The position numbers and the translations under genes were made by a program. Of a stretch of 64,000 nt of DNA, positions 27,996 to 54,912 are shown piece after piece. The stretch's first letter is position 1, and the number at the start of each line of letters is the position of its first letter. Below the pieces are notes generated by a model, which saw only the letters and a list, made by a program, of their open reading frames with translations, was not told the origin of the DNA and ran no database searches. This DNA is from Streptomyces dangxiongensis (GTDB lineage: Bacteria; Actinomycetota; Actinomycetes; Streptomycetales; Streptomycetaceae): contig NZ_CP033073.1 of NCBI RefSeq assembly GCF_003675325.1, positions 8,021,192 to 8,085,191 of the forward strand, given 5' to 3'.

Positions 27996-29366
27996 GTCTG
28001 TCAAACGAGCGGTGTAACTGGGTTGTTGGAGTTACTGGCGGGCTGCAGAGAGGCGGCCGTCGAAGGTGATGTCGAAGGCATTGAGTGCGGTCTTCCAGCG
28101 CATGGTCCAGCGGGCTTGTCCCTTGCCGGTGGGGTCCAGGGACATGATGGCCATGTAGACGCACTTCAACGCGGCCTGCTCGTTGGGGAAGTGCCCGCGG
28201 GCCTTGACTGCCCGCCGGATCCTGGCGTTGACGGACTCGATCGCATTCGTGGTGCAGACGATGCGGCGGATCTCGGTGTCGAAGCGGAGGAACGGCGTGA
28301 ACTCCTCCCATGCGTTCTCCCAGAGCCGCACGATCGGGTATTTCTTGCCCCAGGCGTCGGCGAACTCGGCGAACCGATCAAGTGCGGCCTCCTCGGTTGC
28401 CGCGGTGTAGACGGGCTTGAGGACACGCGCGATCTTGTCCCAGTCCTGGCGGGCGGCATAACGAAAGGAGTTCCGCAGCAGGTGGACCACGCAGGTCTGG
28501 ACCGTGGTGCGGGGCCAGACGGTCTCGACCGCGTCGGGCAGGCCCTTGAGTCCGTCGCGGACCAGCATCAGGACGTCGTTGACACCGCGGTTCTTGATCT
28601 CGGTGAGGATGTGCATCCAGTGCTTGGCGCCCTCGCCGCCGTCGCCGGCCCACAGCCCGAGGATGTCCCGCCGGCCCTCGACAGTGACCGCCAGGGCCAC
28701 GTGAATGGGCCTGTTGGCTACCGCGCCGTCACGGATCTTCACGTGGATGGCGTCAATGAAGATCACGGGATAGACGGCGTCGAGGGGCCGGTTCTGCCAT
28801 TCGGCCATGCCGTCGAGGACCTTGTCGGTGATCGTGGAGATCGTCTGGCGGGACACCTCGGCTCCATAGACCTCGGCCAGGTGGGCCTGGACCTCGCCGG
28901 TCGTCAGGCCCTTCGCCGCGAGCGAGATGACCATCTCGTCCACGCCGGACAGACGCTTCTGCCGCTTCTTGACGATCCTCGGCTCGAAGCTGCCTTCCCG
29001 GTCGCGGGGCACGGCTATCCCGACAGGGCCGACGTCGGTAAGGACGGTCTTGGCGCGGGTGCCGTTACGCGAGTTGCCGCCGTTCTTCCCGGCCGGATCG
29101 TGCTTGTCATAGCCGAGGTGGTCGGTGATCTCACCCTCCAGAGCGGACTCCAGGAGCCGCTTGGTCAGCTGCTGCAGCAGCCCGCCCTCGCCGGTCAGCT
29201 GGAGGCCTTCGGCCTGAGCCCGGCCCACCAACTCGTCAATCAGCCGATCGTCCACAGACTTCGCCGGCACCGCCTCAGACGGCGCGACGGGTTCAGCCTC
29301 GGTCATGTTGTTGCTGGTCATCGATGCATCTTCCATGATCGGGAGTTACACCGAACGTTTTACAGT
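27996..29366 (-). mobile_element. IS256-family insertion sequence, copy 1
   Basis: The element is bounded by imperfect inverted repeats: GTCTGTCAAACGAGCGGTG... on the left and, on the complementary strand, GACTGTAAAACGTTCGGTG... on the right. It contains one transposase gene on the minus strand. It is about 1371 bp, three bases shorter than copy 2 at 32700-34073 because of one missing codon. No 8-bp target duplication is visible at the flanks, so a later recombination between copies is possible. Confidence 0.85.
28032..29321 (-). CDS. IS256-family transposase, copy 1
   Basis: The 429-aa DDE transposase contains the Transposase_mut signatures: EITDHLGYDKHDPAGKNGGN, ITDKVLDGMAEWQNRPLDAV, VIFIDAIHVKIRDG with the first catalytic Asp, and QTCVVHLLRNSF. 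The C-terminal TTNAIESVNARIRR holds the catalytic Glu. It differs from copy 2 by the loss of one Ala codon (KKYPIVRLW against KKYPAIVRLW) and a His for Tyr in NRPIHVAL. The start is taken at MTSNNM as in copy 2; an ATG 15 bases earlier exists only in this copy. It is probably active, or was until recently. Confidence 0.92.
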   Translation of the reverse strand: MTSNNMTEAEPVAPSEAVPAKSVDDRLIDELVGRAQAEGLQLTGEGGLLQQLTKRLLESALEGEITDHLGYDKHDPAGKNGGNSRNGTRAKTVLTDVGPVGIAVPRDREGSFEPRIVKKRQKRLSGVDEMVISLAAKGLTTGEVQAHLAEVYGAEVSRQTISTITDKVLDGMAEWQNRPLDAVYPVIFIDAIHVKIRDGAVANRPIHVALAVTVEGRRDILGLWAGDGGEGAKHWMHILTEIKNRGVNDVLMLVRDGLKGLPDAVETVWPRTTVQTCVVHLLRNSFRYAARQDWDKIARVLKPVYTAATEEAALDRFAEFADAWGKKYPIVRLWENAWEEFTPFLRFDTEIRRIVCTTNAIESVNARIRRAVKARGHFPNEQAALKCVYMAIMSLDPTGKGQARWTMRWKTALNAFDITFDGRLSAARQ

Positions 29367-32699: not shown

Positions 32700-34073
32700 G
32701 TCTGTCAAACGAGCGGTGTAACTGGGTTGTTGGAGTTACTGGCGGGCTGCAGAGAGGCGGCCGTCGAAGGTGATGTCGAAGGCATTGAGTGCGGTCTTCC
32801 AGCGCATGGTCCAGCGGGCTTGTCCCTTGCCGGTGGGGTCCAGGGACATGATGGCCATGTAGACGCACTTCAACGCGGCCTGCTCGTTGGGGAAGTGCCC
32901 GCGGGCCTTGACTGCCCGCCGGATCCTGGCGTTGACGGACTCGATCGCATTCGTGGTGCAGACGATGCGGCGGATCTCGGTGTCGAAGCGGAGGAACGGC
33001 GTGAACTCCTCCCATGCGTTCTCCCAGAGCCGCACGATCGCCGGGTATTTCTTGCCCCAGGCGTCGGCGAACTCGGCGAACCGATCAAGTGCGGCCTCCT
33101 CGGTTGCCGCGGTGTAGACGGGCTTGAGGACACGCGCGATCTTGTCCCAGTCCTGGCGGGCGGCATAACGAAAGGAGTTCCGCAGCAGGTGGACCACGCA
33201 GGTCTGGACCGTGGTGCGGGGCCAGACGGTCTCGACCGCGTCGGGCAGGCCCTTGAGTCCGTCGCGGACCAGCATCAGGACGTCGTTGACACCGCGGTTC
33301 TTGATCTCGGTGAGGATGTGCATCCAGTGCTTGGCGCCCTCGCCGCCGTCGCCGGCCCACAGCCCGAGGATGTCCCGCCGGCCCTCGACAGTGACCGCCA
33401 GGGCCACGTAAATGGGCCTGTTGGCTACCGCGCCGTCACGGATCTTCACGTGGATGGCGTCAATGAAGATCACGGGATAGACGGCGTCGAGGGGCCGGTT
33501 CTGCCATTCGGCCATGCCGTCGAGGACCTTGTCGGTGATCGTGGAGATCGTCTGGCGGGACACCTCGGCTCCATAGACCTCGGCCAGGTGGGCCTGGACC
33601 TCGCCGGTCGTCAGGCCCTTCGCCGCGAGCGAGATGACCATCTCGTCCACGCCGGACAGACGCTTCTGCCGCTTCTTGACGATCCTCGGCTCGAAGCTGC
33701 CTTCCCGGTCGCGGGGCACGGCTATCCCGACAGGGCCGACGTCGGTAAGGACGGTCTTGGCGCGGGTGCCGTTACGCGAGTTGCCGCCGTTCTTCCCGGC
33801 CGGATCGTGCTTGTCATAGCCGAGGTGGTCGGTGATCTCACCCTCCAGAGCGGACTCCAGGAGCCGCTTGGTCAGCTGCTGCAGCAGCCCGCCCTCGCCG
33901 GTCAGCTGGAGGCCTTCGGCCTGAGCCCGGCCCACCAACTCGTCAATCAGCCGATCGTCCACAGACTTCGCCGGCACCGCCTCAGACGGCGCGACGGGTT
34001 CAGCCTCGGTCATGTTGTTGCTGGTCATCGATGCATCTTCCGTGATCGGGAGTTACACCGAACGTTTTACAGT
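32700..34073 (-). mobile_element. IS256-family insertion sequence, copy 2
   Basis: The element is nearly identical to the copy at 27996-29366, in the same orientation, with the same imperfect terminal repeats. It is 1374 bp long. No 8-bp direct repeat was found at its flanks (left ...tcgtgggg, right cctccgcg...). The two copies bracket the RiPP precursor, the IS110 remnant and the CRISPR array. Confidence 0.88.
32736..34028 (-). CDS. IS256-family transposase, copy 2
   Basis: The 430-aa DDE transposase (Transposase_mut) has an intact frame and all conserved blocks: VIFIDAIHVKIRDG, a TVQTCVVHLLRNSF block, and TTNAIESVNARIRR with the catalytic Glu. It keeps the Ala codon in KKYPAIVRLW that copy 1 has lost and a Tyr in NRPIYVAL. 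The start ATG (MTSNNM) is just inside the right terminal repeat. It appears functional. Confidence 0.93.
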   Translation of the reverse strand: MTSNNMTEAEPVAPSEAVPAKSVDDRLIDELVGRAQAEGLQLTGEGGLLQQLTKRLLESALEGEITDHLGYDKHDPAGKNGGNSRNGTRAKTVLTDVGPVGIAVPRDREGSFEPRIVKKRQKRLSGVDEMVISLAAKGLTTGEVQAHLAEVYGAEVSRQTISTITDKVLDGMAEWQNRPLDAVYPVIFIDAIHVKIRDGAVANRPIYVALAVTVEGRRDILGLWAGDGGEGAKHWMHILTEIKNRGVNDVLMLVRDGLKGLPDAVETVWPRTTVQTCVVHLLRNSFRYAARQDWDKIARVLKPVYTAATEEAALDRFAEFADAWGKKYPAIVRLWENAWEEFTPFLRFDTEIRRIVCTTNAIESVNARIRRAVKARGHFPNEQAALKCVYMAIMSLDPTGKGQARWTMRWKTALNAFDITFDGRLSAARQ

Positions 34074-37414: not shown

Positions 37415-37790
37415 TCAGAAATCGTTGCCTGAGCTGGTTCTTCTTCGGTAGTGGCAGCGGCGGGCTGTGGCTTGGTGTCGTCTGCGCCAGAGGGACCAGT
37501 TCAGGGCATGTGCAACGGGTCCGAGGCGGGGTGTGGGGCGGGGCAGCAGAGCGTCCAGGAGTCGGCGGACTTCTGCCACGGTGAAGTGGATGGTGCTGGT
37601 GGGCTCGTTTCTGCGGCCCCCCTTTCGGTGGTCTGGGCTGCGACGGCGGCCAGGAACGCGTGGGCGAGCATGGCAAGTGTGATGTGCCGGTACCAGCCCG
37701 GGTAGCGGCGAACTTCGTACTGGTCGAGGCCGCATTCGTTCTTCGCTGCCTGGTGTGAAGTGTCTTCTTGGTGCCAGGGGCCGCACGTCG
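37415..37790 (-). pseudogene. C-terminal fragment of an IS701-family transposase
   Basis: The minus strand reads [20 protein letters not shown], then [20 protein letters not shown], then in a second frame [20 protein letters not shown] and [20 protein letters not shown]. It corresponds to the last third of the transposase seen at 19194-20512 but is clearly diverged from it. It is a dead fragment next to the IS5 element. Confidence 0.75.
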
Positions 37791-37829
37791 CTTCTCTGCC
37801 ACCACCGGATTCCTTGACCATGTGCCCTG

Positions 37830-38228
37830 ACCTGGTGAGATCCTAGTTCGGCCTACTGGCGTCTAGTGGCACCAGTTGCTGGCAGATAGTGGCACCAGCC
37901 AGAACAGATTTGCGGCACTTCCCCAGACGACTTCGCTTGTTAGGACGCGCGTTTCCAGGGGTGGGGTCAGGGCGTACTCCATCAACTGACGATCACGGTG
38001 AGGGCCCGCTTGATGGTGAGGGCTGGGCGTGTTTGTCGAGCTATGCGGTGTGTGTAGGGGCAGCGGCCGTGTTGGGGGAGACGTGGCTGCGAGCGGTGTG
38101 CTGTGCGGCGGTTCAGGGCGTGGTCGGCCGGGACATCGGATGCCCGTTCCTTATCGATCGGCACGGCAGGCAGCACCATCGTGGCGAGTCCGCCGCAGGC
38201 CGGCCCGTGTGTGCATTTGGGTATGGCG
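37830..38228. other. Intergenic region, nothing recognised
   Basis: No family or strong ribosome binding site is visible. A repeated motif TAGTGGCACCAG occurs at about 37865 and 37888, flanking GTTGCTGGCAGA. It could be a minor duplication or binding site. Confidence 0.4.
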
Positions 38229-39206
38229 CTACTTGCCCCTGAGGTCATCGATCCGACGCTGTTCCCACCAGTCTTGGATCATGTCGAGGCGCTTGACGGA
38301 CGGTTCGATACGGCTCAGGGCTCGGTCCAGGTTGAGGAACGGCACCATCAGGCCGGTGAGTGACGAGGTCTTGGACTTCAACCCCTCTGCCTGCCTCGTC
38401 CAGGAGGCCAGGTGTTTGGCTGTGTCGCTGAGGCCGGTCAGCATACGCGCCATGTCGTCATCCGGCGGGGCCACGGCCGTTTCACCGGAGCTTTTGGAGC
38501 CGAGGAGTTGTTGGGCGGTAGCGACGGCTGTGGAGACAGCCTGGACTCGCTTCGCAGCGTGGTCGTGGAACCGGCGGGCCATCGATGTGAGATCGATGTC
38601 GACGCCTTCGGCCAGGCGGCCCCGAAGCTGGTGTGGCGTCACGATGGGGGCGGGGTCCGATGAAGCCATGACCCAGGCGATCGGTTTGTGTCGGCTGAGG
38701 AGTTCGTCCGCCAACACCCGGTAGGCCAGTACGAGGTCTGCGATCAGGTCGGGTTCCAGGGTGTCGCGGTGGTAGGCCGCGTTGCGGTATTCGTGCAGCC
38801 GGTCGAGTACGTCGCGTTCGTGGTCCGTCAGCACGCCCCGCTGCCTCAGGAACTTGGTCTTCTGGTCCAGATGGTTGTCCATCTTTGCCCGTCGGTCCGG
38901 GCCTACATGCTGGTCGATCAGCTGACTCAGCTGTCCGTCGAGCTGCCCGCCGCTGTCACGGAACTTCCACATCTCTTCGATGGTGCTGTCGGGGATTTGG
39001 AAGGCCAGTTGGGCGTTGACCTCACGGCCGATGATCACCTCGACTAGATGGTCCAGGAGGATGAGGGCAAGGCGATCGTGTGCTTGGTCGCCTGCCTCGG
39101 CACATCGCCGGATCTCGGCTATTTCGACCGCGAGCCAGTTCCACTGTTCGGAGTCCTGCGAGGCCGGGCGGTCCCAATCGGAAGCGAAAGGCTGCATGAG
39201 AGGCAT
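38229..39206 (-). CDS. HEPN-motif protein of unknown function
   Basis: The 325-aa, mostly helical, soluble protein has no named family that I recognise. Residues about 40-165 form a helical bundle ending in LDRLHEYRNAAYHRDTLEPD. R141-x4-H146, preceded by a charged helix, matches the RNase motif of HEPN domains (R-x4-6-H), which occur in toxins and abortive-infection proteins. The C-terminal half (about 200-325) is a long helical region (RRFHDHAAKRVQAVSTAVAT, SSLTGLMVPFLNLDRALSRI). It starts at ATG 39206 after a GGAGG-like stretch. It stands alone beside a TatD remnant and 1.2 kb from the ImmA/XRE pair, a defence-like setting. Confidence 0.75.
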   Translation of the reverse strand: MPLMQPFASDWDRPASQDSEQWNWLAVEIAEIRRCAEAGDQAHDRLALILLDHLVEVIIGREVNAQLAFQIPDSTIEEMWKFRDSGGQLDGQLSQLIDQHVGPDRRAKMDNHLDQKTKFLRQRGVLTDHERDVLDRLHEYRNAAYHRDTLEPDLIADLVLAYRVLADELLSRHKPIAWVMASSDPAPIVTPHQLRGRLAEGVDIDLTSMARRFHDHAAKRVQAVSTAVATAQQLLGSKSSGETAVAPPDDDMARMLTGLSDTAKHLASWTRQAEGLKSKTSSLTGLMVPFLNLDRALSRIEPSVKRLDMIQDWWEQRRIDDLRGK

Positions 39207-39414
39207 GACTGCACCCTTTCATCCTCCCTCCGGGCGACCACCAGGTGAGATAGACAGCCACTGAGGCGACCCACCGCCCAAGGGCGATCGGTGCGGCGCC
39301 ACCCGAGGCCCGCACCAGTGACCTTCGCGCTTACTGGTCCGCTCGGATTCCCACGCTGTGGTTGCTCAGCGCCCAGCCGCGACCGTGAGGAACGGGGCGT
39401 AGGAGGCGCTTGAC

Positions 39415-39613
39415 GCTGCGGTCATTGGGGAAGTCCAGTGGCGCCGAGGAAACGCTGTTGGTTGCCGCAGATGTGCCGGCGGCTTGTTCGGGTGTCAGCG
39501 CCCAGCAGGTGGCGAGGCGGGCGACGACGTCGGAGGTCTGCCGGTCGAGCGGGGTGCCTGTTGTGACGGGCGAACGGGCCATCGGTCTCAAGGAGGACAC
39601 GGTCGGGCGGCAA
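39415..39613 (-). pseudogene. TatD-family nuclease C-terminal remnant
   Basis: The minus strand reads PPDRVLLETDGPFARHN, then in another frame TPLDRQTSDVVARLATCWAL, then back to HICGNQQRFLGATGLPQ. TETDGPF and the final N-x2-R-F-L are TatD hallmarks. TatD homologues occur in housekeeping and in QatABCD anti-phage operons. No other qat gene is visible, so the origin is open. Confidence 0.55.
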
Positions 39614-39798
39614 ATCCCACGGAGTGGGGCCTGAGGCCGGGCCGCGGCCGCCGCAACAGGCGCCGGCCAGCGTTGCCCACTACAACGGCGACGGGCACCA
39701 CTTCAGCCGGGCGGCCCTCGGACGCCGTCCCGTGACCTCGGTTTCGAACCGAGGTCGCGGCATGGAGTGAGCCTCTGCCCCGTCGAGGTCTGAAGAGG

Positions 39799-40386
39799 TT
39801 AGGCGAACCCATACTTCCTGGCGGCCCGCTCGGCCCGAACCCGCGGTCCCTTCATCTGCATTTGAGCGAACTGCTCGCTGACTCCGTAGGTGTTGGCCAC
39901 ACGCTCGTTGTCCCAGCCGCGGTAGGCCATGCGCTGTGCTGCGATGAGCGGAACCAGTAGTTCGCCGGCCATGAAGGTGGCCTGCTTCTCTTGCACGGGG
40001 TCGAACTGGCGATTGTGGTCCTCGCCGAGCACCACACCGTCGAAGGAGTGCTCCAGCAGGTGGTGCCCGAGCTCGTGGGCGATGTTGGAGCGACGCCTGA
40101 CGAGCTTGTGGGACTCGTTCTCCACTATCACTCGCGCACTGCCGAGAGGCACCAGAGCGGCAGACCAGGACGAGGAGCTCTGCACGGTGAAGTGGCTGAG
40201 AGCCTCGTCTCGCAACTCGAACCTCAGCAGACCCTCGAGGGTGTACACCTTGATTCCGTGCTCCTCGGCGAGGGCGTAGGGATCGAGGGGGTCGAGGGGA
40301 CCCAAACTCAGCCCGGCGCGTTCCTCCTGCGCGACCTCACGCATCAGCGCCTGCGTCCAGCGCAACTCAGTGGCTCCGGGATTCAC
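39799..40386 (-). CDS. ImmA/IrrE-family metallopeptidase
   Basis: The 195-aa protein has the zinc-peptidase motif H104-E105-L-G-H108 in NIAHELGHHLLEHSFDG, followed by a helical region with FMAGELLVPL typical of ImmA/IrrE. Such enzymes cleave a partner XRE repressor to release transcription, as in ICEBs1 ImmA/ImmR. The gene overlaps the upstream XRE gene by 20 bases and starts at GTG 40386. The pair is divergent from the ubiquitin-like operon, with repressor-like palindromes between them, so proteolytic induction of that operon is a reasonable inference. Confidence 0.9.
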   Translation of the reverse strand: MNPGATELRWTQALMREVAQEERAGLSLGPLDPLDPYALAEEHGIKVYTLEGLLRFELRDEALSHFTVQSSSSWSAALVPLGSARVIVENESHKLVRRRSNIAHELGHHLLEHSFDGVVLGEDHNRQFDPVQEKQATFMAGELLVPLIAAQRMAYRGWDNERVANTYGVSEQFAQMQMKGPRVRAERAARKYGFA

Positions 40387-40747
40387 GCTCGGCGCGGAAC
40401 CGCCGGGCCGCGGCGCTGATCACCTCTTCGAGGTACGCAACGTCGTCGCCGCTGAGATCGCTGCGCGCCCGCAGTAGGGGAACGAGTGACGCCACCAGCT
40501 CAGGCTCTTCCCGGACGGATCCGTCACGGGTTGTTACGTAGAAGGTCTCCGCTGGCATGCGCAGCCACGTCGTCATGGCTGCGAATGCGGTGACGTCCGG
40601 CTTCAGCCCGTTGGCCATACGGGAGATGGTCGAGGCGCTCACCCCGAGGTCCTTGGCGAGCTGTCGCCATGACAGCCCCTTTTCGATGCGTGCCGCATCC
40701 AGCGCCCCATGCAGGGCCTGCACGTCCACGGTCGGACTCTCACTCAT
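40367..40747 (-). CDS. XRE-family helix-turn-helix repressor
   Basis: The 126-aa protein contains a lambda-repressor-type HTH (ALDAARIEKGLSWRQLAKDL, GVSASTISRMANGLKPDVTA) at residues about 12-68 and a C-terminal helical tail (DVAYLEEVISAAARRFRAER). It is co-transcribed with the overlapping ImmA peptidase gene. Two similar TGCTCGA-type sites lie in the 117 bases between this gene and the divergent Ubl gene. Confidence 0.9.
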   Translation of the reverse strand: MSESPTVDVQALHGALDAARIEKGLSWRQLAKDLGVSASTISRMANGLKPDVTAFAAMTTWLRMPAETFYVTTRDGSVREEPELVASLVPLLRARSDLSGDDVAYLEEVISAAARRFRAERESRSH

Positions 40748-40768
40748 GCCTGTCCCCGATTTTCGTCA

Positions 40769-40824
40769 CTGCTCGACTTTTCGATCACCCCTGGTACAGT
40801 GTAACTGCTCGACATTTCGAGCAG
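40769..40824. promoter_or_regulatory. Operator/promoter region of the XRE-ImmA and Ubl operons
   Basis: CTGCTCGA-CATT-TCGAGCAG is a perfect 8-bp inverted repeat at 40805-40824. A degenerate copy (CTGCTCGA-CTTT-TCGA) lies at 40769-40784. Between them TCGACT (40773-40778) and TACAGT (40795-40800), 16 bases apart, form a possible sigma-70-type promoter towards the Ubl gene. An XRE dimer at the two sites would block it. Confidence 0.65.
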
Positions 40825-40864
40825 TGATGCACTTTCGCGTCACCGTGTGCGCGACAGGAACGCC

Positions 40865-41122
40865 ATGACGCAGGACCGCGGGCCCAAGCCCGTCACGATC
40901 ATCGTCAACACCCGCTCCCACACCTGGGAGACCAAGGAGATCACCTACGAGCAGGCCGTCGCCCTGGCCTACCCCGGCCAGCAGCCGAACGAGCAGGACA
41001 CCTACACAGTTCAGTACAGCCGCGGCCGCGACGGACACGGATCGGGCAGCCTCACGGCCGGCCACAGCGTCCGGGTGAAGGAGGGGATGATCTTCGATGT
41101 CTACCGTACTTCTCGCTCGTGA
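40865..41122 (+). CDS. Ubiquitin-like protein of the bacterial multiubiquitin (PF14452-like) family
   Basis: The 85-aa protein reads PVTIIVNTRSHTWETKEITY, EQAVALAYPGQQPNEQDTYT and VRVKEGMIFDVYRTSRS. This matches the single beta-grasp unit of bacterial multiubiquitin-domain proteins. The C-terminus is RTSRS, without a Gly-Gly, so processing or an unusual tail must be considered. ATG 40865 has AGGA 9 bases upstream. It overlaps the E1-like gene by 26 bases. In known bacterial Ubl operons the Ubl is activated by a ThiF/E1 protein and attached to targets or used as a signal. Control by the divergent XRE/ImmA pair is inferred. Confidence 0.85.
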   Translation: MTQDRGPKPVTIIVNTRSHTWETKEITYEQAVALAYPGQQPNEQDTYTVQYSRGRDGHGSGSLTAGHSVRVKEGMIFDVYRTSRS

Positions 41123-42266
41123 CCCGGACCTGTCCCGCCTCCTCGACGATGGCTACGACGTCGTCCTCCACGCCGGCCACATCATCGTCCGGCACATCCC
41201 CTATGCCACCGAGAACCGCACCGTCGACCACGGTTTCCTCGCCTACCCCATGACCGTCAGCGGAGACCACCTGGTCTCCGGCACTGATCACCGCATCTGG
41301 TTCGGCGGCTCCACTCCCTGCGATGAGCACGGCCGCCGTCTAACCCTCGTCAATCCGGAGACCCGGGTAATCGCCGAGGGCATGCAGGCGAACTTCATGC
41401 TCTCGGCCAAACCCGGTCCCGATGGCTACCCCGACGAGTACACGAAGATCACCGCGTACGCCAGGATCATCGCCGCCCAGGCGCAAGCCCTCGACTTCAC
41501 GGCCACTCCCACCCCCGGCGCGGCGTGGCAGGAGATCGTCGACGACAGTCCCTTCGCCTACCGTGACACCGCCACCTCCCGCGCCGGTATCGCGGCCGTC
41601 AACCGCCGCTTCCGAGGCCACCGCATTGTGATCGTCGGCCTCGGCGGCAGCGGAACCTACATCCTCGACCAGATCGCCAAGACCGAGGTCGACTCGATCC
41701 TCCTCATCGACGGCGACACCTTCGACAACCACAACGCCTTCCGCGCCCCCGGCGCCCCCACTCTCGACACCCTGCGCGAACGCCCCAACAAGGCCGCCCA
41801 CTTTGCCTTGGTCTACTCCAACATGCACCGAGGGGTATCCGCGTGTGCGCAGTACCTCGACGAGGACAACCTCGACCTCCTCGAAAGCGCGACATTCGTG
41901 TTCCTCGCCTCCGACGACGCCGCAAGCAAACCGGTGATCATCGACTGGCTCGAAGCCCACGAAGTACCGTTCATCGACGTCGGCATGGGCATCGAAGAGA
42001 TCGACGGCCGCCTGAGCGGACTCCTGCGCGTCACCACCAGCCTCCCGGGCCGCCGAGACACAGCCCGTCACCGCATCCCCCAGCCGGCGCCCGAAGGCGA
42101 CGCCTACGCACGCAACATCCAGACCGCCGACTTGAACGCACTCAACGCCGTCCTGGCCGTGATCCGCTGGAAACGCTCCATCGGCGTCTACGCCGACGCC
42201 ACCGACGAGAGCCACACCACGTACTCGCTGATCACCAACGAGATCACCAACGAGGACCTGCCGTGA
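41097..42266 (+). CDS. ThiF/E1-like adenylyltransferase with N-terminal E2-like (DUF6791-type) region
   Basis: The 389-aa protein has two parts. Residues 1 to about 140 resemble the DUF6791/E2-like N-terminus found on bacterial ThiF proteins and contain C75 in GSTPCDEHGRRLTL. Residues about 155-389 are a ThiF Rossmann domain with the ATP loop G181-L-G-G-S-G186, LLIDGDTFDNHNAFR (D205, D207) and FVFLASDDAASKPVIIDWLE. The only other cysteine is C250 (SACAQYL), so C75 or C250 would be the thioester candidate. It should activate the upstream Ubl. It overlaps the next gene by four bases (GTGA), giving translational coupling. Confidence 0.85.
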   Translation: MSTVLLARDPDLSRLLDDGYDVVLHAGHIIVRHIPYATENRTVDHGFLAYPMTVSGDHLVSGTDHRIWFGGSTPCDEHGRRLTLVNPETRVIAEGMQANFMLSAKPGPDGYPDEYTKITAYARIIAAQAQALDFTATPTPGAAWQEIVDDSPFAYRDTATSRAGIAAVNRRFRGHRIVIVGLGGSGTYILDQIAKTEVDSILLIDGDTFDNHNAFRAPGAPTLDTLRERPNKAAHFALVYSNMHRGVSACAQYLDEDNLDLLESATFVFLASDDAASKPVIIDWLEAHEVPFIDVGMGIEEIDGRLSGLLRVTTSLPGRRDTARHRIPQPAPEGDAYARNIQTADLNALNAVLAVIRWKRSIGVYADATDESHTTYSLITNEITNEDLP

Positions 42267-42664
42267 CCGCACAAGACACCCTGCGCCCGGTCTTCACCGA
42301 TACCTTCCCCGAAACGATGGACGCGGGAGTGCTGTACGTCTCGATCCCCTACCGCACCTGCAGCCACCTCTGCTGCTGCGGTTGCGGCCACGAAGTCATC
42401 ACACCACTCTCCCCGGCACAGTGGTCGATTACCTACGACGGCCAAAACGTGTCCCTCACCCCCTCGATCGGCAACTGGGCGCTGCCTTGCCGCTCGCACT
42501 ACTGGATTGATGACGGCCGCATCCGATGGAGCCGGCACTACTCGACAGCAGAAGTCGCCCAGAACAGGGATCGTGACCGCCATCTGTTGTCCCAATACAC
42601 CGAAGAGCACAGGCCAAGGCCGCTGACCAGTCTGCGTCGCCACCTGCGGTCGTGGCTCCGGTAG
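42263..42664 (+). CDS. DUF6527-like cysteine-rich protein of the Ubl operon
   Basis: The 133-aa protein contains CSHLCCCGCGHEVITPLSP and, later, SIGNWALPCRSHYWIDDGRI. These cysteines and histidine suggest a zinc-binding fold, as in DUF6527 proteins that accompany ThiF and multiubiquitin genes. The GTG start overlaps the ThiF stop, with gagga 6 bases upstream. It could be the ligase-like or target-recognition component; this is inference, as no catalytic activity is established for the family to my knowledge. Confidence 0.75.
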   Translation: MTAQDTLRPVFTDTFPETMDAGVLYVSIPYRTCSHLCCCGCGHEVITPLSPAQWSITYDGQNVSLTPSIGNWALPCRSHYWIDDGRIRWSRHYSTAEVAQNRDRDRHLLSQYTEEHRPRPLTSLRRHLRSWLR

Positions 42665-53328: not shown

Positions 53329-54912
53329 ATGAAGCCCCCGGACCCCGAGGACCTCACCGAAGAAGACCTGGCCCGCCGCCGGCACGCACAACGGGAACTC
53401 ATGGGTCCCGCCGTACGCTCCCTACTGCAGCTCTCGCAGCGCGGAGAGCTGACCACCGCTCATGTCGAACTGTCCGCCCACACCCTCGGCGTTCACGTCA
53501 CGACTGTGTGGCGCAAGCTGGCCCGCGCCCGGCTCGGTGAACCCCTGCACCGCAGCCGGGACCGTTTCGAGATCACCGACGCCATCCGCACGCTGCTCGC
53601 CTACCACCGGGGCAACGTCAAAGCCGTCCACAGAGAACTCGCGCAGGAAGCCGAGACATCCGGCGCCACCCCGGTGAGCCTGTCCACACTGCACCGCGCC
53701 ATCAAACGCGACCTGCCGCCAGGTGACCGAGCCGGCCTCAAGAACGGGCTCCCCGCCTCCCGCGGCCACGACCCGCATCTGCGCCGCCCGCCCACCGCCC
53801 GCAACGAGGAGTGGGAAGGCGACCACAAGCAAGCCCCCGTCTGGGTGTGGGCCAACGACCGGCTGGTCAAACCCTGGGTGACCTGGTTCTGCGACTGCCA
53901 CACCGGCATGATCATGGGCTGGGCCGTCACCCCTCACTTCCCGCACCGCGGGTCCATCCTGGCCGCCCTCAGATCCTGCATCCTGCACGACGACGGCTAC
54001 GGCCCGGCAGGCGGCCTGCCCACCCGGATCCGCATCGACCGCGGCAAAGACTTCCTCTCCCGCGCCGTCCAGGACGCACTCGGCGCCTTCGCCGTCCAGG
54101 TCGACGTCCTGCCTCCCTACACCCCCCACCTCAAAGGCAGCATCGAAAACCTCAACCGCGCCGCCACCAGCATGTTCTTCTCCACCCTGCCCCGCTACAC
54201 CCACGCCCAGAAACTCGACTCCCGCCACCACTCGGGGGACAAGGACCCAGCCCTGACCTTCGAAGGATTCGTCGAGCTCTTCGCGCAGTGGGTCAAGACC
54301 CGCAACGCCGACCACACGATGGCCGGCTACGGCGACCTCACCCCGCTGCAATGGTGGAACAGCGAGAACACCCCGCTGCGCGAAGTCAGCGCCAAGGACC
54401 TTCACGCCTTCCTCCTGGAAGGCGACCGCTCCACCCGCGTCATCAACGGCCACGGCATCCGGTTCAAGGGGCGCGACTACATGGCCGGCTGGATGACCGG
54501 CCGCTCCGGCACCCGCGTCCACATCCGCTTCCAGCCCCACCACCTCGACCAGATCGAAATCTTCGACGCCGACAACCGCCGGCATCTGGGCACCGCCCAC
54601 CTGGCCGACCAGGCCACCGACGAGCAAATCGAGCAGGTCTATCAAGCCCGCGCCGAACGCTCCCGCCGCGTGCGCCGCGACCTGCGCCGGGCCGAAACCC
54701 TGCGCCGCCGCCGCTTCAAAGCACACACCACCACCGGACCGGCCCAGGCCGACACCGCGATGACCCGCAAAGAGGCCGCCAAGGAACTGGGCGCCTGGAG
54801 CTCCGGCCGGACCGCTGACGATCTGCCCTCCGACTACATGCCCCGCCGCATCACCCCGCCCGGCGGCTGGGCCGTCCCCGGCACATCCACCCCCACCGAG
54901 GAAGAGACATGA
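53329..54912 (+). CDS. Mu/TniA-type DDE transposase
   Basis: The 527-aa protein has N-terminal HTH domains (LSAHTLGVHVTTVWRKLARA, TPVSLSTLHRAIKRDLPPGD). An rve integrase core follows with D165 in EEWEGDHKQAPVWVWA, D237 in TRIRIDRGKDFLSRA and E273 in HLKGSIENLNRAATSM; D237 and E273 are 35 residues apart. A Mu transposase C-terminal beta-barrel comes next (YMAGWMTGRSGTRVHIRFQP). It is the transposase of a Tn7/Tn552/Mu-like system that needs an AAA+ partner, and its stop overlaps an ATG in front of the ATPase genes. Confidence 0.9.
   Translation: MKPPDPEDLTEEDLARRRHAQRELMGPAVRSLLQLSQRGELTTAHVELSAHTLGVHVTTVWRKLARARLGEPLHRSRDRFEITDAIRTLLAYHRGNVKAVHRELAQEAETSGATPVSLSTLHRAIKRDLPPGDRAGLKNGLPASRGHDPHLRRPPTARNEEWEGDHKQAPVWVWANDRLVKPWVTWFCDCHTGMIMGWAVTPHFPHRGSILAALRSCILHDDGYGPAGGLPTRIRIDRGKDFLSRAVQDALGAFAVQVDVLPPYTPHLKGSIENLNRAATSMFFSTLPRYTHAQKLDSRHHSGDKDPALTFEGFVELFAQWVKTRNADHTMAGYGDLTPLQWWNSENTPLREVSAKDLHAFLLEGDRSTRVINGHGIRFKGRDYMAGWMTGRSGTRVHIRFQPHHLDQIEIFDADNRRHLGTAHLADQATDEQIEQVYQARAERSRRVRRDLRRAETLRRRRFKAHTTTGPAQADTAMTRKEAAKELGAWSSGRTADDLPSDYMPRRITPPGGWAVPGTSTPTEEET

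Follow-up and report, generated by a model that had tools for sequence, protein, structure and literature searches.

A serine-ended ubiquitin-like protein encoded beside a divergent XRE/ImmA pair in a JAB-less operon at the chromosome end of Streptomyces dangxiongensis

The DNA studied here is the last 64 kb of the 8,085,191-bp contig NZ_CP033073.1 of Streptomyces dangxiongensis (64,000 nucleotides, hereafter the window), whose nearest relatives are Streptomyces proteins and genomes. The window carries three coupled genes, encoding a ubiquitin-like protein (Ubl), an E1-like DUF6791-ThiF protein (E1) and a DUF6527 protein, and they are divergent from a gene pair encoding an XRE repressor and an ImmA peptidase. 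An earlier reading made from the letters alone (the sequence-only reading) had proposed a Ubl conjugation operon controlled by an XRE/ImmA switch at 40367 to 42664. This range holds the operon and omits most of the ImmA gene, which extends to 39799. The features, in window coordinates, are as follows.

39799 to 40386, minus strand: ImmA/IrrE (M78) metallopeptidase, 195 amino acids (aa), HELGH motif in the translation (Pfam PF06114, 2.6e-17; PADLOC capP, 1.1e-8)
40367 to 40747, minus strand: XRE repressor with a Cro/C1-type helix-turn-helix (HTH), 126 aa (Pfam HTH_3, 1e-8)
40768 to 40787, no strand: degenerate second operator copy (0 mismatches to a pattern that was written to cover both copies)
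40804 to 40825, no strand: putative operator, perfect palindrome ACTGCTCGA-N4-TCGAGCAGT (palindrome and pattern search)
40865 to 41122, plus strand: Ubl, single domain, 85 aa, tail RTSRS (one PF14452 match, 8.5e-16, residues 10-82)
41117 to 41119, plus strand: TCG codon of the invariant C-terminal Ubl serine, within the 26-nt overlap with the E1 gene (conservation across loci and codon test)
41097 to 42266, plus strand: E1-like DUF6791-ThiF fusion, 389 aa
41124 to 41570, plus strand: DUF6791 match in E1, residues 10-158 (Pfam, 1.4e-42)
41604 to 41987, plus strand: ThiF match in E1, residues 170-297 (Pfam, 1.9e-13)
42263 to 42664, plus strand: DUF6527 (PF20137) protein, 133 aa (Pfam, 6.4e-25)
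37747 to 42215, no strand: stretch repeated in inverse at the left chromosome end, holding XRE/ImmA, Ubl and most of E1 (99.75% identity)

A Pfam profile search of the window proteins placed all five gene products above the cut-offs, confirming each family that had been assigned to the coupled genes as well as the HTH_3 and Peptidase_M78 domains of the divergent pair. PF14452 matched the Ubl only once, in agreement with the single unit that had been read from it. The genes overlap by 26 nt (Ubl/E1), 4 nt (E1/DUF6527) and 20 nt (XRE/ImmA), and the perfect palindrome reported between the divergent units has 9-bp arms and a 4-nt spacer. E1 also exceeded the cut-offs of two NCBIfam models, NF004805 and NF004804, both named only 'hypothetical protein'. 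The absence of a JAB deconjugase and a Ubl tail lacking Gly-Gly had been noted correctly, but they had been called unusual, and both turned out to be the rule among the family members examined.

Relatives were collected by a 16-sequence profile scan of genome contigs, which gave 560 confirmed loci; the best 80 were kept (L032-L111) and, together with the window, make up the 81 loci described below. Since the 80 loci were found through two conserved E1 peptides, the set is biased towards the E1 type of the window. Several loci stop at contig ends, and absences apply to the available DNA stretch. Open reading frame starts were set mechanically at the longest frame, so N-terminal lengths should not be taken for annotated ones. 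Alignments comprised 74 E1 rows, 72 DUF6527 rows and 59 of the 80 Ubls, and the E1 tree was built by a quick method. The kept relatives span many phyla, two archaea among them. Profiles built from the window proteins detected the Ubl and the DUF6527 protein in 80/81 loci each, ImmA in 60 and XRE in 44; the Ubl was not detected in L074, and the DUF6527 protein was not detected in L039, whose sequence stops about 600 bases past E1. Within the genus, an E1 match with E < 1e-70 was present in 9 of 392 genomes, one of the nine being broken, and within the phylum PF14452 matched in 11 of 296 genomes (9 above the cut-off). Among 72,556 plasmid records, 122 had an E1 match, which covered 80% or more of E1 in 108 records, and no match was found in 50,697 phage records. 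Two oddities were seen among the relatives. L088 (Mucilaginibacter) has both the Ubl and the DUF6527 gene in duplicate, on opposite strands, probably two adjoining copies of the operon, and a short database protein (P0084) fuses a Ubl start in frame to a truncated DUF6791-ThiF protein, an apparent deletion chimera.

E1-activated Ubls are expected to end in glycine. Every Ubl found in the loci (80/80) has serine as its C-terminal residue, followed immediately by the stop codon without any extension, and the preceding residue was Lys (40), Arg (34) or Gln (6). N15 and S85 were the only invariant residues of the Ubl alignment. The best 120 of 2312 database matches to the Ubl profile, a sample biased towards high scores, all end in T-[DN]-K-S, and the only solved relative found, PDB 9cd2, has the tail TDKS. 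The overlap with E1 allowed us to ask whether the E1 frame accounts for the serine. Across the 79 loci in which the two genes overlap, the serine codon accepts any third base (TCN) and E1 residue 8 varies with it (Arg 56, His 12, Leu 6, Pro 5), while E1 codon 7 ends in T in 79/79, as compared to T at 17.6% of E1 third positions; the naive log10 probability of this pattern, with shared ancestry ignored, is about -72. Judged from these codons, selection acts on the Ubl serine and not on the E1 frame. L082, the sole locus without the overlap, likewise has a Ubl ending in serine. The E1 start ATG lies 26 nt before the end of the Ubl gene in 74/79 overlapping loci, and since the Asp/Asn-Val pair of the Ubl tail carries this start codon, its conservation is not attributable to the Ubl alone.

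The tail was compared with those of 20 plasmid loci in which E1 is fused to JAB (sister operons); 19 of these were hand-picked among 40 listed of 229 matching records, and the other is the Synechocystis pSYSX cassette, also among the 40. The JAB and E2_E profiles were built from these same loci, and their match to 20/20 is largely by construction. Neither profile matched the window or any of the 81 DUF6791 loci, E2_E being the sole E2 family profiled there. The sister Ubl was readable in 19 loci (that of L133 by eye, from an unnamed protein), and L132 has no annotated Ubl. TEG was present in 17/19 tails: six end there, four have a short extension and seven continue into an E2_E domain, so that 11/17 extend beyond the glycine. 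E2_E itself lacks a conserved cysteine, no column exceeding 7/19. The simplest reading would be that JAB trims a glycine-ended Ubl, whereas the Ubl of the DUF6791 branch is born mature with its serine and needs no JAB for maturation. From this comparison of JAB/glycine sisters with the JAB-less/serine branch, missing JAB and missing Gly-Gly are, as far as the tails and profiles indicate, a single family trait, which is the new element here. Some sister operons have conspicuous neighbours. Helicase genes are annotated just upstream in L138 (1-1537) and L130 (551-2542), one as UvrD-type and one as ATP-dependent DNA helicase, and the L126 operon on a Nostoc plasmid is flanked by an Eco29kI-type restriction system on one side and a nucleotidyltransferase/SAVED stretch on the other.

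The XRE/ImmA pair was surveyed as a regulator. Upstream DNA of 2.6 kb or more was available for 72 loci, and 54 of these have ImmA within 2.6 kb upstream, divergently oriented in 37 and co-directional in 17; downstream, ImmA was found in none of the 75 loci with equally long DNA on that side, so the predicted conservation of the pair beside homologous operons held. When the 117-bp intergenic gap was shuffled 2000 times by mononucleotide, palindrome arms as long as those in the window appeared eight times. The pattern TG[CT]TCGA-N2-6-TCGA[AG]CA occurred in nine copies in eight loci, all upstream of the Ubl gene, and not once in the other 923 kb. The motif-bearing loci all have the same XRE type and represent 8/10 loci of the closest XRE, L055 and L070 being without the motif. 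By its footprint, the palindrome is a conserved candidate operator. A simple sigma-70 scan of the palindrome region found no promoter.

Other regulators stand in the place of ImmA elsewhere. For loci without ImmA, 72 upstream open reading frames were picked and 57 were scanned; eight loci had a pair of a CapS-like protein (STAS and winged HTH) and a CapK-like protein (GHKL-type), names taken from PMC13373217, and L108 had, by eye, a WYL-type repressor like CapW. With regulators scored as ImmA, CapK/S-like or neither, the E1 tree shows 15 switches between types; this count is a maximum, as short contigs were scored 'neither'. In four sphingomonad or Bosea loci (L066, L078, L092, L111), the ImmA match is a protein of 1133 to 1134 aa; that of L066 (1774-5175, 1134 aa), the only one scanned with Pfam, combines ImmA, UvrD helicase and PD-(D/E)XK nuclease domains directly upstream of the Ubl operon and could be a sensor of DNA damage that carries its peptidase as a fusion. 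The CapK/CapS-like replacements and this fusion are compatible with induction by damage or infection, and the CapH/CapP and CapK/CapS work described in the consulted parts of PMC13373217 suggests, by analogy, a damage or single-stranded DNA trigger. As a separate observation, two operons that are close relatives of each other, L069 and L094, have pPIWI-RE genes in their upstream neighbourhood.

In the DUF6527 protein, C37, C39, C41, C76 and H79 were invariant in 80/80 sequences and H35 was present in 79/80. The 2006 description by Iyer, in the parts seen, prints a C-x3-C-x35-38-H-x2-C protein as an accompanying gene (PMC1779556). In the window protein C37-x3-C41 is present, Pro and Ser occupy the places of H and C in H-x2-C, and C76 and H79 lie beside them. 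Eight of nine sister JAB-type DUF6527 proteins also fail the printed H-x2-C form and only the Synechocystis one fits, so this signature is a poor test. The DUF6527 protein in the Rhizobium phaseoli JAB-type operon (L127:4913-5281) lacks most of the conserved cysteines, and the metal site is thus not needed everywhere.

The class of operon is already known, as Iyer type 6e with a JAB-less subset, and the ImmA neighbour was reported in 2016. Type 6e loci combine a Ubl of one to three repeats with an E1 that carries either JAB or, in the JAB-less form, domain X, and they add an E2/RWD-like protein described as inactive and a partner that binds metal; the JAB-less E1, the single Ubl and an actinobacterium in the domain-X subset were all published in 2006 (PMC1779556, in part). 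The window resembles this subset in its PF14452-type Ubl, its E1-like protein (ThiF with DUF6791) whose N-terminal domain replaces JAB, and its small Cys-rich partner; the JAB and E2/RWD-like proteins of type 6e proper were absent by profile from the window and from all 81 loci. DUF6791 is presumably the 'domain X' of 2006. The examined parts of that paper do not report the serine tail, the Ubl/E1 overlap or the difference in tails between JAB and JAB-less operons. The Synechocystis pSYSX cassette (L124) shares with the window the Ubl, the ThiF enzyme, DUF6527 and a divergent HTH and ImmA pair, but has JAB on E1, a separate E2_E protein and the Ubl end TTTEG. Citrobacter BubCD (PDB 9ea4 and others) and the window E1 show 18% identity over residues 165-389, and the sequence profile aligned window E1 residues 168-301 only, the N-terminal domains lying outside the comparison. 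PDB 9cd2 (ZDHYS365 multi-ubiquitin domain protein) belongs to the Ubl family and has the same kind of tail, but is a 222-residue chain of which only residues 143-222 match well. CapH/CapP, like the window pair, place an HTH repressor and an HExxH ImmA-type peptidase beside an immune-type operon; the PADLOC capP match of the window is accompanied by a weak capH match (0.0031). In the parts of PMC13373217 consulted, 219 of 544 Bub operons have CapW or CapH+CapP. A literature search found no description of a serine-ended Ubl, although papers on Bub structure and mechanism and on CapH/CapP were outside its coverage and may already hold one; a search with Bub and oxyester terms found nothing.

How an E1-like enzyme would act on such a tail can be read in several ways. 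The sequence-only reading had called the E1 N-terminus E2-like and singled out Cys75 and Cys250, which corresponds to a canonical relay from adenylation through an E2-type thioester on Cys75 of DUF6791 to a target lysine. H65 and G71 are indeed invariant, P74 is present in 80/81 loci and Cys75 in 73/81 (51/52 rows outside the 29-row clade containing the window); the predicted elements of DUF6791 begin with a helix followed by strands, and H65 and C75 are ten residues apart, which is also the His-Cys spacing in classical E2 enzymes. However, Cys75 is His, Arg, Ser or Val in the other eight loci, with at least four changes on the tree, and seven of these eight retain a serine-tailed Ubl, the eighth being without a detected Ubl. 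Cys250 is present in only 12/81 loci and the best Cys column of the ThiF part reaches 37/81, whereas a canonical E1 has an invariant catalytic cysteine. DUF6791 gave no significant match to an E2 family in the profile search, and its hhalign comparison with the sister E2_E was no better than with a control profile. The E2-like designation and the Cys75/Cys250 relay as a family rule therefore found no support in these comparisons. Most members could use a classical thioester relay, but the family can do without the cysteine on which it depends, and we consider this relay a doubtful account of the family as a whole.

Rather unlikely, in our view, is a MccB/PaaA-like reaction, in which the Ubl C-terminus is adenylated and altered (for instance by a nucleotide adduct at the serine, a lactone or another rearrangement there) and the product acts unconjugated. 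The closest folds to E1 include MccB and PaaA, which are ThiF-type enzymes with peptide substrates and no Ubl-thioester relay, the last tail residue is invariant, and the system has neither a glycine nor a strictly conserved cysteine. MccB-type operons carry short peptides, however, whereas the Ubl is a whole PF14452 domain with longer relatives that by eye hold several units (L062, 157 aa; L067, 226 aa), and the sister operons with E2_E and JAB resemble a conjugation/deconjugation set. That the Ubl is a sulphur carrier like ThiS or MoaD seems very improbable: the ThiF domain and the presence of ThiF from the ThiS complex among the closest folds would fit, but the thiocarboxylate of sulphur carriers requires a C-terminal Gly-Gly, and the tail ends in serine throughout. 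As for the regulators, XRE/ImmA could be an addiction (toxin-antitoxin) module that retains the cassette on mobile DNA without controlling it. PMC4963859, the single paper that the literature search on DUF6791, DUF6527 and multiubiquitin turned up, reads the homologous Synechocystis pair in this way and states, in the parts seen, that 70% of PF14452 genes adjoin COG2856/DUF955 genes; the window also lies at a chromosome end amid insertion sequence (IS) elements. Against this, the pair is divergent, the operators lie between it and the Ubl gene and are found only with the same XRE type, and CapK+CapS-like regulators substitute in other loci, which makes an addiction module improbable.

We regard as the more probable account a stress-inducible multiubiquitin (Iyer type 6e) operon without JAB and E2_E, whose Ubl would be adenylated at a ready-made C-terminal serine. 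XRE would keep the divergent promoters shut via the TGCTCGA-N4-TCGAGCA operators, and ImmA, for which DNA damage or infection is the probable trigger, would cleave XRE and release the expression of Ubl, E1 and DUF6527. The ThiF domain would then adenylate the Ubl at its born-mature Lys/Arg/Gln-Ser C-terminus, which, having no glycine or extension, would need no JAB peptidase for processing. DUF6791, standing at the place of JAB in the sister operons and without their E2_E, may help to deliver the Ubl, once activated, to a target; the Cys-rich DUF6527 protein would probably serve as target adaptor or as transfer partner. Gene content, coupling, the selected serine tail, the lack of JAB and E2_E, the operator and the linkage to the regulator are read from sequence; ImmA cleavage, serine adenylation, conjugation and the roles of DUF6527 and in defence are what we infer from them. 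More tentatively, this bacterial and archaeal Ubl branch may pass the adenylated serine carboxylate on directly or via an oxyester or lactone-like intermediate formed with the serine hydroxyl, with no invariant thioester cysteine, DUF6791 and the CxCGC centre of DUF6527 replacing E2 and JAB.

Several points weigh against the account of a stress-inducible, serine-activating operon. The C-terminal serine could serve a purpose other than adenylation, such as recognition or a buried end, and no cysteine of the DUF6791-ThiF protein is strictly conserved. The literature examined holds no experimental demonstration of conjugation by DUF6791 systems, and a 2026 paper, in the parts consulted, states that protection against phage is still to be demonstrated for Bub operons (PMC13373217). 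Two of the 19 sister tails (L131 and L141) lack TEG, both continuing into an E2_E-like end. The nearest Streptomyces relatives (L032-L040, L044, L047) have a different upstream ImmA-type protein, on the same strand in 9/11, so the XRE/ImmA pair is replaceable. Finally, no fold match was found for DUF6527, and its adaptor role is thus a guess.

The operon sits at the chromosome end amid IS elements. Positions 37747-42215 recur inverted at the left chromosome end (G000:C2:1-4470) over 4.47 kb, which places the operon within the terminal inverted repeat. Since the deposited left end begins inside the E1 gene, the terminal repeat, and with it the left copy of the operon, is probably truncated by the assembly. 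Elsewhere in the window, 53329-54912 encodes a protein that joins an integrase core domain to a Mu-type transposase C-terminal domain and may belong to a Tn7-like element, and two open frames at 28032-29336 and 32736-34028 have a common start sequence, the second being an IS256 family transposase.

Tag attachment in the serine-tailed family may follow an unusual route. The family is large (2312 database matches to the Ubl profile), ends in serine in all 80 loci and in the best 120 of those matches, and has no JAB, no E2_E and no invariant carrier cysteine, which raises the chemical question of whether and how an E1-type enzyme activates and transfers a serine-ended protein. The glycine-ended JAB sisters and the serine branch form a natural experiment on when a Ubl needs maturation, and the operator and the swapped regulators offer a direct route to asking whether these operons answer DNA damage or phage.

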